Positions 7,500-56,404 of a DNA stretch of 64,000 bases are shown here, in pieces; the first letter of the stretch is position 1; every line of letters begins with the position of its first letter. Made by a program: the position numbers and the translations under genes. Source of the DNA: Sulfurimonas sp. (lineage in GTDB: Bacteria > Campylobacterota > Campylobacteria > Campylobacterales > Sulfurimonadaceae); the NCBI GenBank assembly GCA_011391635.1, contig JAABQD010000001.1, positions 124,001 to 188,000 on the forward strand, written 5' to 3'. The notes beneath the pieces are model-generated. The model was not told the DNA's origin, made no database searches, and worked only from the letters and a program-made list of their open reading frames with translations.

Positions 7500-8348
7500 T
7501 TATTTAGTAAGTGCTTCGCACAGCGTATCTGTATAGATTGCAAATCCCACAGAAGTTAACTCTTCATTTTTGTATCTTCCACCGCGGGCATACACTTCAT
7601 TTTTATGTATAACTCTGCAAAACAGCTCATCATAGTAAAGCATCTCAGCATAATATATTGGTGCTAAAACACTATTTTTACATGACATTTTAGAACATAA
7701 ATCTCTCATTTTTTGAAGCTCTACCTTTATGGCATGTGGAGCTATTTCTAAGAGTTCATCTACTTGTTCCACATGCTGAAGGTAAACAAGTTTTTCTAAC
7801 CATTTTACATTTAAATTCAGAAGTTTTTCTATATTGATATGGCGAAAATCATCAAGTGTAAGCTTTTCAAACATCTCTGACACTATTTGTGGAATTCTCA
7901 TATTAGATATTTGCAACAAAGGCTGAAGTTCAAGTTTGTCAAAAATACTCACTGCTAACTTCATCACGGAAGCAAGATTTGCTTCACCCATATATTCTAC
8001 ACCTACTTGATACTGCTCTATCGAAGGATAACGAAAAACTGGTTGTATATAGAACCACTTTTTATGCTCTGTGTTGCGTCCTAATCTTTTTTCAATAATT
8101 CTTACAACATCAATTGTTGAATCTGCTCTTAGGCTCATATTATTATTCTTCGCATCACTGAGTCGAATGAGCTCTTTTTCATCAGCAATACTGAGATGTT
8201 GATGATAAGAAAACACAGGTGTCACTATCTCTTCAAAGCCATTCAAATAGAGTATTTCACTCGCGATTTGCTCTATTTTTCTCTTAACTTTTGCTGACTC
8301 TCCAAAATAAAGCTTAGAGCCATTTGGTATCTCATGCTCTAAAATCAT
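7500..8348 (-). CDS. hisZ: ATP phosphoribosyltransferase regulatory subunit HisZ
   Basis: Class II aminoacyl-tRNA synthetase-like protein that lacks ligase activity and regulates a short-form HisG, the first enzyme of histidine synthesis. It starts [19 protein letters not shown] and shows the HisRS-like motif [11 protein letters not shown]. It has 282 residues. The preferred start is 8348; an in-frame ATG at 8372 overlaps the upstream aminotransferase gene. hisG is not in the window. A dispersed word lies at 7730-7740. Confidence 0.88.
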
Positions 8349-10268: not shown

Positions 10269-11585
10269 ATGTTTAAAAAAGTCTTTCCGCTCTCTGCAAT
10301 TCTCTCTCTTAGATTTTTAGGTCTGTTTTTAGTTTTACCAGTTATATCTGTTTACGCAATGGAACTTCAAGGTGCAACACCTTTTTTAGTTGGTGTAGTT
10401 GTTGGAGGATATGCTCTAACACAAACAATCTTTCAAGTTCCCTTTGGAACAATGAGTGATAAAATAGGAAGAAAGCCTACTCTTTTACTAGGTCTTATTA
10501 TCTTTTTCATAGGTTCTATAGTTTGTGCTTATTCAACAGATATCTATACGCTTATGATTGGAAGATTTCTTCAAGGTGCTGGTGCAATCGGGGCAGTTAT
10601 TACTGCAATGATTTCAGATCTAGTTGAAGAAGAAAATCGAGGAAAAGCTATGGCTATCATGGGAGCTACTATTGCTATCAGTTTTGCACTTGGCATGGGA
10701 GCAGGTCCTGTTTTAGGTGCAAAATATGGAATTAGCACCCTTTTTCTCATTACTGCTGGATTAGCAATTTTTGCAATAGCTCTTCTCTTTACCAAAGTCC
10801 CTACACCTCCTAGAATCAGACATATCTACCATGATAAATCAAAAACAAGTGATATTCTTAAAGATTCAAATCTTTTAAATATGATTATCATCAATGGTAT
10901 GCAAAAAGGTTTAATGACCGTAGCTTTCGTACTCATTCCTATTATTTTAACAAACGATGAGTTTCAATGGCATAAATCTGATCTTTATATGGCATACCTT
11001 CCTGCTATGGTATTAGGACTTATAGCTATGGGACCTGCTGCCGTTTTTGGAGAAAAAAAGAATAAACCAAAAGAGATATTCTTAATTTCTATTGTTCTTT
11101 TTATCGGTTCATTTTTAATTATGGGACTTACCCATTCCAGCACAGTATTCATTATAGGCGTTGTCATGTTTTTCGTTGCATTCAATATGATGGAACCACT
11201 CGTACAATCTATGATTAGTAAATTTGCAAAAGTACATCAAAAAGGAGCTGCCCTAGGTATCTCCAATTCAGTTTCTTACTTTACTACCTTTTTAGGTGGT
11301 ACTCTTGCTGGTCTCTTTTTAGATATTAGCAATAGAGAAACTATCGGGATTACCATCGCGATTATCGCAACTCTATGGTTTTTATGGACATTAAAACTAC
11401 AAAATCCTACAAAATATTCACATCTCTTTATGCCTCAAGAGAGTGTGGATATGGATAAATTAGAAAATTTAGAACATGAACACATCGCTGAATGGTATAT
11501 AAATGAGACAGAGAATCTTGTAATCGTGAAGTATGTGGCTCAAAGTATGGAAGAAGAAGATTTAAAAGCCATTATTGCTAAATAA
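10269..11585 (+). CDS. Major facilitator superfamily transporter
   Basis: A 438-residue inner-membrane protein with twelve hydrophobic segments and the MFS loop motif GTMSDKIGRKPTLLLG between helices 2 and 3. It resembles drug/H+ antiporters of the DHA1 type; the substrate is unknown. After the last helix there is a soluble tail of about 60 residues (MDKLENLEHEHIAEWYINETENLVIVKYVAQ) that looks like a small folded domain, an uncommon addition. It converges on infC; an inverted word pair lies between them. Confidence 0.88.
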   Translation: MFKKVFPLSAILSLRFLGLFLVLPVISVYAMELQGATPFLVGVVVGGYALTQTIFQVPFGTMSDKIGRKPTLLLGLIIFFIGSIVCAYSTDIYTLMIGRFLQGAGAIGAVITAMISDLVEEENRGKAMAIMGATIAISFALGMGAGPVLGAKYGISTLFLITAGLAIFAIALLFTKVPTPPRIRHIYHDKSKTSDILKDSNLLNMIIINGMQKGLMTVAFVLIPIILTNDEFQWHKSDLYMAYLPAMVLGLIAMGPAAVFGEKKNKPKEIFLISIVLFIGSFLIMGLTHSSTVFIIGVVMFFVAFNMMEPLVQSMISKFAKVHQKGAALGISNSVSYFTTFLGGTLAGLFLDISNRETIGITIAIIATLWFLWTLKLQNPTKYSHLFMPQESVDMDKLENLEHEHIAEWYINETENLVIVKYVAQSMEEEDLKAIIAK

Positions 11586-11587
11586 AC

Positions 11588-11617
11588 TTTCCACATGCCA
11601 AGAGTGGCATGTGGAAA
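11588..11617. terminator. Inverted pair of the dispersed word between MFS gene and infC
   Basis: The arms TTTCCACATGCCA and TGGCATGTGGAAA are perfect 13-base complements around a 4-base loop (AGAG). Placed between two convergent stops, three bases after one and 13 before the other, the hairpin could end transcription from both sides. It has only short A/T flanks rather than a long U-run. Confidence 0.75.
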
Positions 11618-11629
11618 TAAAGAAACAGA

Positions 11630-12148
11630 CTATTTACTTGGAAGAACAAGCATATTGTAGTAGCGACCCTCAAAACGAGGTGTTTTATCCATTACTCCAA
11701 CATCCTCAATCATAGCCCAAACTCTCAAAAGTACATCTTTAGCAGCATCAGGATTTGCCATTTCACGCCCTTTCAAAAAGACGCGAAATCGCACATGTTT
11801 CCCTTCAGCCAAAAATTCTCTTGCATGTTTCACTTTATAATTAACATCATTCTCAGCAATTTTAACAGAGAGTTTAATCTCTTTAATATCCACTTTCGTC
11901 TGATTTTTTCTCTGTTCTTTCTGTTTTTTCTCTTCTTGATATCTATATTTACCGTAATCCATTATCTTAGCAACAGGTGGCTTAGCATCAGGAGCTATTA
12001 GAACTAGGTCTAGTCCAAGTTCATTAGCTTTTGCCATAGCTTCATCCGTAGAAACAATCCCTAAAGATTCAGCTCCATCGATATTACATCGCACCTCAGA
12101 TACACGGATATCATCATTCATTATGACACGGTCAGTTTTTTTACTCAA
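11630..12148 (-). CDS. infC: Translation initiation factor IF-3
   Basis: Binds the 30S subunit and checks start-codon pairing. The 172-residue protein has the N-domain motif [16 protein letters not shown] and the C-domain [15 protein letters not shown]. It starts at a TTG overlapping the thrS stop (TTTTGA) with GAGGT upstream. A non-AUG start is typical of infC and permits autoregulation by IF-3 itself. The rpmI-rplT genes that often follow are absent. Confidence 0.96.
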
Positions 12149-13953
12149 AAATTTACCTCATTTATTTTAGTTTGTATAAGCGATAAAAACTCTTTTTCGC
12201 TTAGGTTGTATTGTTCTCTTGTGCGACGATCCCTGATTGCTACAGTTCTGGCTGCAATCTCTTCATCACCTATCACAACTATCATCGGAACACGCGTTTT
12301 TTCGGCTGTTCTGATTCTTTTATTTAAAGAGTCATTTTTCGCGAATATTTCACTATCAGCACCAATGTCGATAAGTTTATCTGATAATTCCTTAGCATAC
12401 TCTTTATGCGTATCTGCAACAGGAACAATTGCAACTTGTGTAGGAGCAATAAACATAGGAAATTCACCAGCATAATGCTCTGTCAAAATACCGATAAATC
12501 TCTCAAATGAGCCAAGAATCGCTCTATGAATCATTACTGGCTGAATTTTATCGTTATTTTCGCCATTATATTGTAGCTCAAATCTCTCAGGTAGATTAAA
12601 ATCTAGCTGAATCGTTCCACACTGCCATTCACGGCCAATAGCATCTGTAATTTTTATATCTATTTTTGGACCATAAAAAGCGCCGCCACCCTCATCTATC
12701 TCAAAAGGAAGGTTATTTTTGTTCATCGCATTTTTCAGTGCCTGAGTTGAAATTTCCCAAACTTCATCGCTTCCAACCGCTTTTGCAGGTTTTGTGGAAA
12801 TCATCATCTTGTAGTTAAACTCAAATGTGCTCATGATTTTATCGACAAAATCAACAACTTCTATAATCTGCTCTTCAATTTGATCTGAAGTACAAAAAAT
12901 ATGTGCATCATCTTGTGTAAACTCACGCACACGGAAAAGCCCATGAAGTGCACCCGTCATCTCATGACGGTGAACAACGCCATACTCAAAATACTTGAGT
13001 GGTAAATCACGGTAGGAGTGCAACTCCTCTTCATACACTTTTATATGTCCAACACAGTTCATAGGTTTTACACCAAATTCAAGCTCATCTATGTTTGTGA
13101 AATACATATTTTCGCCATAATTTTGGTAATGACCCGATGTTTTCCACAAATCACTTCGAAGCATCTCAGGTCCACGAACAGGCTCATAACCGCGTTTACG
13201 GTGCGCTTTAAACAAAAGTGACTCAAGTCTTGCACGAAGACGCCCACCAGCAGGAAGCCAAATAGGAAAACCCGCACCAACTTCTTCACGGAAAGTAAAG
13301 AGTTTCATCTCATTTCCAAGTTTACGGTGGTCGCGTTTTTCCGCTTCAGCAATCATGTCCAGATGCTCTTTTAAAGCCTCTTTATCCGCAAAAGCAATCC
13401 CATAAATACGAGTTAAAACCTCATTTTTAGAATCACCGCCAAGATACGCACCCGCTATTTTCATAAGTTTAAAGTAACGAATAAGTCCTATATTTGGTAA
13501 ATGTGGACCACGGCAGAGGTCTTCAAACTCACCTTGTTTATAAATAGAAACGCTATCGCCTTGAATTCTCTCCATGACAGCAAGTTTCAGGTGGTCATTT
13601 TTAAACTTCTCTTTTGCTTCATCTATAGAAATATTGTATTTTTCAATTTCGTATTTCTTTTTAGCGAAGGAAAGCATCTCTTTTTCAATATTTTTTAAAT
13701 CACCTTCACCTATCTCATGTGAAGTTTTAAAATCATAGTAAAAACCCTCTTTGACAGTTGGTCCTACATAAAATTCTGCATCTTTGTAGAGTGATTTGAT
13801 AGCTTGAGCCATCAAGTGAGCTGTAGAGTGACGAAGCACCTCTAAAGAGTCAGGAGAGTTATCAAGGAGAATCTGTTCACCTTCAAACCCTAACTCTTTT
13901 GCAGTTTGTAAATCAATAATTTCACCATTATGTTTTATCGCTATTGCATTCAA
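12145..13953 (-). CDS. thrS: Threonyl-tRNA synthetase
   Basis: Class IIa synthetase of 602 residues. An N-terminal TGS-like region is followed by the editing domain ([11 protein letters not shown], the conserved HxxxH), the catalytic core with zinc cysteine in MNCVGH and motif 2 [18 protein letters not shown], and the anticodon-binding domain ([10 protein letters not shown]). It is slightly shorter than the E. coli enzyme (642). It forms an operon with infC (TTGA overlap). Confidence 0.97.
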
Positions 13954-14030
13954 AATTTATAATCCTATCTATTTATTCTGGGCATAATGCCCGATTTTTA
14001 CTTTAAAATGTTTGAAACACTTTTTTGCAT

Positions 14031-14068
14031 TGGCATGTGGAACTCATTTTTGGAAGTTCCACATGCCA
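14031..14068. terminator. Inverted pair of the dispersed word between ilvD and thrS
   Basis: Arms TGGCATGTGGAACT and AGTTCCACATGCCA are 14-base perfect complements with a 10-base loop. It follows the ilvD stop by 7 bases on the minus strand and precedes thrS, so it may be the ilvD terminator. Confidence 0.75.
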
Positions 14069-14075
14069 AAATATT

Positions 14076-15761
14076 TTATAATTCAGTTTTTAAAACCGCC
14101 CCATTTGAAGCGTTGGATACAAGAAGTGAATATCTTTTAAGCCATTTAGATTGAACCTCATTTTTATGTGGTTTCCAAGCTTCTCTTCTTAAGGCAATCA
14201 CATCTTCACTCACATTTAATTGTAATAAATGCGTATCTACATCAAGTTCTATTTCATCACCATCTTCTATTAAAGCAATAAGACCACCCTCCGCAGCTTC
14301 AGGGGAAATATGTCCAATACTCGCTCCACGCGTAGCACCAGAGAAACGACCATCTGTGATAAGTGCAACACTCTCACCAAGCCCCATCCCCATAATAAGG
14401 GAGGTTGGAGCTAGCATCTCCTGCATACCTGGTCCACCTTTTGGACCTTCATAGCGAATAACTACAACATCTCCTGCTTTAACTTTATGTGACATAATTC
14501 CAGCTAGAGCTTGTTGTTGCGAGTTAAAACAAACTGCCTTGCCTTTAAACTGTCTCATATTTCCTGTAATACCAGCCGTTTTGACAACTGCACCTTCTGT
14601 AGCAAGATTTCCAAAAAGAATTGATAAGCCACCTACTTTTGAATAAGCATTTTCATTTGTATGGATAACAGTTTCATCCAAAATTTTTGCATCGGCTATT
14701 CTCTCACCAATTGTTTCACCTGTTACAGTTAAATTATCTAAATGAAGTATGCCACCACGACGGCTTACCTCTTTCATAACTGCATTAACGCCACCTGCAC
14801 GATTGATGTCATCCATATGAACTGTTGAAAGTGAAGGAGAAATTTTTGCGATATGTGCTACATTATGAGCAATATTATTTATTTTTTCAATCGGAAAATC
14901 AACTCCTGCCTCTTTTGCAATTGCCAACATGTGTAAAACAGTATTGGAGCTTCCACCCATTGCCATGTCAACAACAAAAGCATTATGTACAGCTTTTTCA
15001 TTCAGTACATTGCGTAAATTGTATTTAGCATCATCTGCTTTTGCCATCTCAACAACTCTCACAGCTGCTTTTTTAACTAATTCTATTCTTGCAGGTGTCA
15101 TTGCCAAAATCGTTCCATTTCCAGGAAGAGCAATCCCCATAGCTTCACACAAAGTATTCATAGAATTCGCGGTGAACATGCCTGAACAGCTTCCACCACT
15201 TGGACACGCTTCACACTCTATCTCATAGAGTTCTGCATCACTCATTTTGCCCTCAGCATGTTGCCCAACAGCCTCAAATGCAGTCGCTAAATCTATCGGG
15301 GTACCATCTTTTTTATGTCCAGCTGGCATCGGTCCGCCTGAGACAAATACAGTAGGAACATTTACGCGTAATGCACCCATTATCATCCCTGGAACAATCT
15401 TGTCACAATTAGGGATACAAATCATTGCATCGAGTTTATGTGCATTCATCACAGTTTCAATAGAATCTGCAATAATCTCACGAGATGGAAGTGAATAGAG
15501 CATACCATCATGCCCCATCGCAATTCCATCATCTACACCAATGGTATTAAAAACAAAAGGTACTCCACCTGCTTCTCGAATAGCTTCTTTTACGATTTCT
15601 CCATACTCATGCAAGAAAAAATGTCCAGGAATAATATCTATGTAACTATTTGCAATTCCGATAAATGGTTTATCAAAATCCTCATCTTTTAAGCCCGTAG
15701 CTCTTAAAAGTGAACGGTGAGGAGCTTTGTCAAACCCTTTTTTAATAGTATCGCTTCGCAT
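14076..15761 (-). CDS. ilvD: Dihydroxy-acid dehydratase
   Basis: Iron-sulfur enzyme that dehydrates dihydroxy acids to the keto acid precursors of valine, isoleucine and leucine (and pantothenate). The 561-residue protein shows the cluster cysteines in [11 protein letters not shown] and [17 protein letters not shown] and the C-terminal [11 protein letters not shown] motif. The start [19 protein letters not shown] is typical. It is followed by the 14031-14068 hairpin. Confidence 0.97.
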
Positions 15762-35251: not shown

Positions 35252-36526
35252 ATGAAAAAATTACTCTTATCGACTGCACTCTGTGCAACATTAGTTTACG
35301 CGGCGGATGTTCTCCCTGTTGAAAAAAGAAGTTTTGAGCAATCAAAATATATACCTGATATCTCGTTAATTGTGGATGCTTCTTATGTAAGCAGAAGTGG
35401 CGACCAAGATGCAATACCACATTATGAACTTCCATCCATTGCACACGCTCTTTTAGGTTCACACTCACATGATGGTACAACACACTCAACTTACAACGCA
35501 AATGATGGTTTCAACCTCAACTACGGGGAGCTGGTTTTATCAAGTTCAGTTGACCCGCTTTTCAATATGGAAGGTGTTTTTCACCTCTCTGAACATGGCT
35601 TTGAGATAGAAGAGGCTTTTTTTACATCTAATGTTCTTGGAAATGGTTTGAGACTCAAAGGCGGAAAGTTTAACTCAAACTTCGGCTACCTCAACGAGCA
35701 ACACCACCACGCATGGGATTTTGCAGATATGCCACTTGTCTATGAAGCATTTTTAGGAATGCACGGCATAAATGAAAAAGGGGCACAGCTTCAATGGGTA
35801 GCACCGACAAAAACTTATTTGATGGCAGGTATCGAAGTGATGCAAGGCGAAAATGAGCAGATGTTTGGCAATGAAACTATCGGTGACCCAGAAGTGACTA
35901 CAATCGCCAAAAGAGCAGATGCACCCTCACTCTTTATAGGTTATGTAAAAACATCTGTGGATATCGATAAAACAACTGTTTTAGGAGGTCTCTCATTCGC
36001 AAAAGGGGCTTCGAGAATTGACCATAGCAGTGATGATGAAAATCCACATGCTTTCAGCGGAGACAGCACACTTTATGGAGCGGATTTAGTGGTGAAACAC
36101 TTTTTTGATTCCTACAGCTTTTTGTCACTTCAGAGTGAATATCTTTCCCGAAAAATGGATGGAGAGCAATTTTCTTCGATTGATTTGACCGTCATTCCTT
36201 ACACATATAACACGATTGCAATGACAAAAGAGCAGAGTGGATTTTATTCTCAGCTCGTTTACGCATACGATAAAAATTGGCGAACAGGTGTCAGATATGA
36301 TGCGATTACACAAAACGATGTGAGCGTGGCTTCTGCTTTTGCTCCTACTGACATGCACAAATACACACTTATGGCAGAATACTACACAAGTGAATTTGCA
36401 AGATTTAGACTCCAATACGACCGTAACGAAGCTCTCTACAATGAAGATGCTCAAAAACAGAGTATAGATACGCTTATTTTTCAAGTAAATATCTCTATCG
36501 GTGCACATGCCGCACATAGTTTTTAA
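35252..36526 (+). CDS. Outer membrane beta-barrel protein, probable metal-uptake porin
   Basis: A 424-residue secreted protein with signal peptide MKKLLLSTALCATLVYAA and alternating hydrophobic strands ending in an aromatic residue (AHAAHSF), as in outer membrane barrels. Histidine-rich loops (GSHSHDGTTH, NEQHHHAWDF) are notable. No TonB box or plug is evident, so a porin is more likely than a TonB receptor. Position ahead of the znuA/znuB-like genes suggests zinc passage across the outer membrane; this is inferred. Confidence 0.65.
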   Translation: MKKLLLSTALCATLVYAADVLPVEKRSFEQSKYIPDISLIVDASYVSRSGDQDAIPHYELPSIAHALLGSHSHDGTTHSTYNANDGFNLNYGELVLSSSVDPLFNMEGVFHLSEHGFEIEEAFFTSNVLGNGLRLKGGKFNSNFGYLNEQHHHAWDFADMPLVYEAFLGMHGINEKGAQLQWVAPTKTYLMAGIEVMQGENEQMFGNETIGDPEVTTIAKRADAPSLFIGYVKTSVDIDKTTVLGGLSFAKGASRIDHSSDDENPHAFSGDSTLYGADLVVKHFFDSYSFLSLQSEYLSRKMDGEQFSSIDLTVIPYTYNTIAMTKEQSGFYSQLVYAYDKNWRTGVRYDAITQNDVSVASAFAPTDMHKYTLMAEYYTSEFARFRLQYDRNEALYNEDAQKQSIDTLIFQVNISIGAHAAHSF

Positions 36527-36535
36527 AAAAAACAT

Positions 36536-36563
36536 TTCCACATGCCAAGCTTGGCATGTGGAA
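36536..36563. terminator. 28-base perfect palindrome from two copies of the dispersed word
   Basis: TTCCACATGCCAAG followed at once by its exact complement (CTTGGCATGTGGAA), centred on AAGCTT. It lies 9 bases after the outer membrane protein stop and 22 before znuA. It could attenuate transcription inside the operon; no U-run follows. Confidence 0.6.
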
Positions 36564-56374: not shown

Positions 56375-56404
56375 TGGCATGTGGAATTCTATTTCCACAT
56401 GCCA
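56375..56404. terminator. Inverted pair of the dispersed word between trkA and the potassium channel gene
   Basis: TGGCATGTGGAA and TTCCACATGCCA (12-base perfect arms, 6-base loop) at a convergent junction. The right arm is also the last codons of the minus-strand channel gene (GMWK and stop). Confidence 0.75.

Follow-up and report, generated by a model that had tools for sequence, protein, structure and literature searches.

Inverted pairs of an abundant, uptake-like word form hairpins at gene ends in Sulfurimonas

Two inverted copies of a short, very abundant word form a perfect stem-loop between two converging genes of Sulfurimonas sp., and pairs of this kind recur just after stop codons throughout the genome. 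We consider it likely that the structure is a 3'-end stem-loop common to both genes, the stem of which has been rebuilt from inverted uptake-like words, so that a single element would have a dual use in DNA uptake and at the 3' end. The window, i.e., the whole stretch of DNA analysed, is 64,000 nucleotides long, and the hairpin TTTCCACATGCCA-AGAG-TGGCATGTGGAAA is located at exactly 11588-11617. Its arms are 13 bases each, completely complementary and separated by 4 nt. An earlier note had described a 13-base perfect hairpin here, in a 44-base gap between convergent MFS and infC genes, and both the coordinates and the arm complementarity agree with that description. The stop codons lie at 11585 (MFS) and 11630 (infC), so the hairpin occupies most of the 44-nt gap. 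The features around it are as follows.

10269..11585, + strand: MFS transporter gene (PF07690), ends 2 nt before the stem
11578..11587, - strand: U-rich tail in the infC direction, GTTTATTTAG, 6 T in 10, overlaps the MFS stop codon on the opposite strand
11588..11617, no strand assigned: perfect stem-loop, 13-bp stem, loop AGAG (+) or CTCT (-), two inverted word copies
11588..11600, - strand: word copy reading TGGCATGTGGAAA
11605..11617, + strand: word copy reading TGGCATGTGGAAA
11618..11627, + strand: flank in the MFS direction, TAAAGAAACA, 1 T in 10, without a U-tract and not terminator-like
11630..12148, - strand: infC, translation initiation factor IF-3, ends 12 nt before the stem
12145-13953: thrS, upstream of infC

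The predicted RNA fold is stable in both directions (z = -5.8 for the + strand, -4.7 for the - strand; none of the shuffled sequences was as stable). No family matching the hairpin was found in Rfam. The U-rich tail is confined to the infC-side transcript (GUUUAUUUAG); the MFS side reads UAAAGAAACA.

The core of each arm is the 10-nt word GGCATGTGGA. The window contains 39 copies, where 0.08 are expected, and a genome-wide pattern search returned 1,298 copies in 2.35 Mb (644 forward, 654 reverse). As a control, the reversed word was found twice in the genome, with counts of 0 and 2 for the two orientations. The word profile is (C/T)TTGGCATGTGGAA, and copies with one mismatch are rare. The flanks add little information, and there is no long flanking similarity. 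Most single words (143 of 172) are inside genes; the remaining 29 are intergenic, which corresponds to an approximately twofold intergenic enrichment. In the genome collection, contigs with the word are labelled Sulfurimonas, Sulfuricurvum and Helicobacteraceae.

The window is almost free of words between 16.6 and 30.2 kb, a region that includes a ribosomal protein gene cluster. Words seem to be excluded from strongly constrained genes. A prophage reading of this region had a single weak PHROGs match behind it and was set aside in favour of the ribosomal protein cluster, given a match to ribosomal protein L3. The genome also has two tandem arrays between genes in which every 18-bp unit carries one word, one of 8 copies (L104, about 299-434, on G000:C8) and one of 16 copies (L119, about 7738-8017, G000:C18:43137-43416). 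The words are set apart by different spacers. Within an array the units are near-identical, and both arrays look like recent expansions.

Inverted pairs, defined as two word copies separated by 0-30 nt, are far more frequent than expected. The focal arrangement accounts for 52 of them and the opposite one for 38, against 5.6 expected for each; the total is 90 versus 11 expected, an excess of about eightfold. The earlier note had asked for such a genome-wide list and its relation to stop codons, and had held that pairs at chance level would speak against its reading; the counts are well above chance. Direct pairs number 47 (11 expected), but about half of these come from the two tandem arrays, leaving about 25. 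Within the window there are four inverted pairs, where 0.43 would be expected even from intergenic words alone. The earlier note had called the focal pair the clearest of five in the window; it is not the longest, as two others have longer arms. The further pairs are listed below, with no strand assigned.

14030..14069: second pair, opposite arrangement, 15-bp arms, 10-nt loop, about 6 nt after the stop of ilvD (14076-15761, - strand)
36536..36563: third pair, focal arrangement, 14-bp arms, between the gene at 35252-36526 (+) and a ZnuA-like gene (+)
56375..56404: fourth pair, opposite arrangement, between converging TrkA-domain genes

Pairs also differ from single words in their placement. 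Genes around the fetched stretches were called with a hexamer model, and loci were picked by word pattern rather than by gene context. In the source genome 76 of 86 pairs are intergenic, versus 29 of 172 single words (p ~1e-29), and 64 of 86 (74%) lie at most 25 nt after a stop codon, versus 14 of 172 single words (8%). The median pair starts about 8 nt past the stop codon. Gaps between converging genes hold 39 of these 86 pairs, and diverging gaps 5. The pattern is replicated in other MAGs, where 83 of 91 pairs are intergenic versus 30 of 169 single words. Clustering of these 91 pairs leaves 65 independent sites, with 51 at most 25 nt from a stop and one in a diverging gap. For both sets combined, 136 of 177 pairs are within 25 nt of a stop and 8 are in diverging gaps. 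Loop lengths of the pairs range from 0 to 29 nt.

The 3' end of infC is informative in relatives. A hairpin with z <= -2 within 60 nt after infC was identified in 25 of 30 congeners (median z -3.6). These stems are mostly unrelated in sequence; a stem made of a word pair is present in G000, G134 and G192, and in G145 one word copy lies within an extended stem. Only word-bearing genomes make the infC-end hairpin from the word. As the position of the hairpin is constant while the stem sequence varies, we infer that the word was taken into the stem in the word-bearing genomes. The excess of pairs, their placement at gene ends and the restriction of word stems to word-bearing genomes together identify the pairs as word-built hairpins at 3' ends.

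Both arms are altered, with pairing intact, in some stems of the near relatives G151, G216 and G207, at three independent sites; the infC stem of G207, with arms TTTCTACATGCC and GGCATGTAGAAA, is an example. These two-arm changes are suggestive of selection on pairing. In G207, GCATGTAGAA is enriched and the GGCATGTAGA variant is over-represented. The compensated stems could instead represent the GGCATGTAGA dialect of this genome, without selection on pairing. The infC stem of G207 was first taken for a decay product; given the enrichment of GCATGTAGAA, it may be local dialect. The infC 3' end of G215 (L197) has the stem ATAATCTCTTCACATGTGAAGAGATTAT with CACATGTG at its centre, and CACATGTG is enriched in that genome, possibly as another dialect.

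A classical intrinsic terminator requires a U-tract. Tests for this feature, expected to favour intrinsic termination, did not bear it out. The tails of word-pair stems have a mean of 3.5-3.7 T in 10 nt, no richer than the background or than the non-word gene-end hairpins of these genomes, and a tail with 6 or more T in 10 nt follows just 5-17% of the stems. No asymmetry between sense and antisense tails was found at codirectional pairs. A U-tract excess at the genome's own codirectional focal-type pairs (p 0.04) was absent in the other MAGs (p 0.80) and was discarded. Thus, the proposal in the earlier note of an inverted uptake-sequence pair acting as terminator stands as regards the enrichment of the pairs, their intergenic location just after stops and the uptake-like profile of the word, but the pairs as a group are missing the U-tract. 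The stricter version, with the pairs working in both directions as intrinsic (Rho-independent) terminators of the classical type, just as in Neisseria and Haemophilus, is a possibility that we regard as doubtful. It would account for the position directly after stop codons, the excess in converging gaps, the strong stems and the 6 T in 10 on the infC side of the focal site. Neisserial word stems are likewise long with fewer T in the tail (Kingsford et al., PMC1852404), and a weak tail is for this reason compatible with termination. It fits poorly with the low mean T content (about 3.5), with the small fraction of stems that reach 6 T in 10, and with the single T on the MFS side of the focal site.

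In its genomic pattern the word resembles a DNA uptake sequence, being dense, present in both orientations, mainly genic and divided into clade dialects, although uptake itself is inferred. This reading is based on the match to known uptake sequences in copy number, balanced orientation and mainly genic location, on the patchy distribution of the word by clade and its dialects, on the commonness of comEC among congeners and, more suggestively than as proof, on the erosion of words in relatives with a split or missing comEC. Around 18 of 134 other congeners have the word well above background, with up to 1,302 copies in one of them; no other genus does. A related dialect, TACATGTAGA, reaches 515 copies in congeners without GGCATGTGGA, in a neighbouring or sister clade, and the two groups are separate in a tree of infC and thrS. 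Genomes with TACATGTAGA, the core of which is palindromic, include G088, G099, G190, G107 and G092. This dialect forms few inverted pairs, 0-11 in each genome, and of 15 that were inspected 10 follow gene ends. G201 carries the word variant AGCATGTGGAAA, which is AGCATGTGGA-like, and G192 the variant TTGGCATGTG, with a relaxed 3' end (stretches L264-L270). The motifs TNGCGTTTA (G085) and GCATCTG (G199/G217) were rejected as dialects, as the signal is too weak. In G085 (L168, L274-L276) a different motif, T(C/G)GCGTTTA, which is unrelated to the word, is enriched, with 14 and 15 copies in 80 kb versus 0.9 and 1.8 expected.

The gene comEC was identified in 123 of 135 congeners; in G000 it is partial, at a contig end. 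Exact words are down to 140-183 in the three closest relatives, G151 and G216 among them, and there are 2-3 one-mismatch copies per exact word there, compared with 0.2-0.4 in word-rich genomes. At the comEC locus of G151 (G151:C15, L213 717-10108), an insertion of some 8 kb splits the gene. The insertion encodes TnsA-like, KwaB-like (Kiwa defence), radical SAM and UDG-family proteins, and is apparently flanked by the 5-base repeat GTCTC. We did not find comEC in G216, a 99% complete genome. It is suggestive that word erosion is tied to comEC loss in these two genomes. The link is not clean, because G207 has few words yet an intact comEC, and G141 (89% complete) shows the reverse, with 202 dialect words and no match in the comEC search.

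Other readings of the word and of its pairs seem less likely. The word might be a genome-wide motif of another kind (a Chi-like recombination site, a chromosome-organising site or a modification-linked site), which we consider unlikely. Motifs of these kinds can be dense too, but the balanced orientation (644/654), the variation of related words by clade and the erosion in relatives with a damaged or missing comEC speak against this reading, as do the gene-end hairpin pairs, which have been documented for uptake sequences (PMC1852404, PMC3630211). Less probable still is that the pairs have no RNA role, the word being tolerated between genes and collecting in the few unconstrained spots. Consistent with this, single words are also about twofold enriched intergenically, and diverging gaps, the home of promoters, are avoided; however, intergenic words would give 0.43 pairs in the window rather than four, the 90 inverted pairs greatly exceed the approximately 25 non-array direct ones (11 expected), and unrelated stems hold the same place after infC in relatives. 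We give very little weight to a mobile palindrome of REP/BIME or MITE type. The resemblance to REP elements lies in intergenic palindromes close to gene ends. Here, however, the conserved part is just ~10-13 nt, with no conservation beyond the word, loop length is variable (0-29 nt), most single copies lie within genes and Rfam gave no matching family. REP/BIME elements are recognised by a conserved palindrome that exceeds the word and is mostly intergenic, a description that does not fit here.

The reading that we favour is a hairpin with dual use. Most likely, GGCATGTGGA labels self DNA for natural transformation. Fragments that carry it would more often be taken up and recombined, and words would in this way build up across the genome. 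At gene ends that already had a useful stem-loop, the word may have been adopted into both arms, and one element would then take part in both DNA uptake and 3'-end formation, as its position and the comparison with relatives suggest. On the infC side, intrinsic termination could result from the stem and the GUUUAUUUAG that follows it. At the MFS gene and most other pairs, where the U-tract is missing, the hairpin may mainly block 3'-to-5' trimming after Rho-type termination, or act as a weak terminator.

If correct, these findings are of comparative value. It is fairly probable that Sulfurimonas and its neighbours represent a third independent lineage with uptake-sequence-guided transformation, with its own dialects (GGCATGTGGA, TACATGTAGA and AGCATGTGGA-like) and with word-pair 3'-end hairpins that are largely free of U-tracts. 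A 2025 paper gives Neisseriaceae and Pasteurellaceae as the only families with uptake-sequence discrimination (PMC12616744), and our search of open-licence papers found no uptake sequence reported for Campylobacterota, Sulfurimonas or Epsilonproteobacteria. A third lineage of this kind, from a separate phylum and with dialects and relatives whose words apparently decay beside a broken comEC, would allow comparative tests of how uptake specificity arises and is lost. The conversion of word pairs into gene-end hairpins would then be an independently recurring change. The host is a sulfur oxidiser of an environmental genus for which complete genomes exist, so experiments appear practical.

The hairpin belongs to a known class of structure, here in a lineage where it was not expected, and the word system looks new. 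Neisseria and Pasteurellaceae are known to carry inverted uptake-word pairs at the ends of genes (PMC1852404, PMC2397512, PMC3630211). The analogy with Neisseria and Haemophilus drawn in the earlier note is apt for an inverted uptake-like pair at gene ends, but the host belongs to Campylobacterota. Rho-independent terminators share the stable stem-loop just past stop codons, common to converging genes; the word pairs described here differ in mostly being without a U-tract. The pasteurellacean USS (AAGTGCGGT) is similarly dense, on both strands, genic and intergenic, with inverted pairs in presumed terminators (PMC1852404). The words themselves are unrelated. The Haemophilus uptake motif has T-rich flanking segments; T-rich flanks are weak around the Sulfurimonas word inside genes. 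The neisserial DUS (GCCGTCTGAA) is also a 10-nt word, present in more than 1,000 copies at a density of roughly one every 1.8 kb, with inverted pairs at gene 3' ends, clade dialects and long stems with T-poor tails (PMC2397512, PMC3630211, PMC1852404). It is a different word in a different phylum, unrelated in sequence, with ComP as its receptor; uptake of the Sulfurimonas word is a prediction from genomes.
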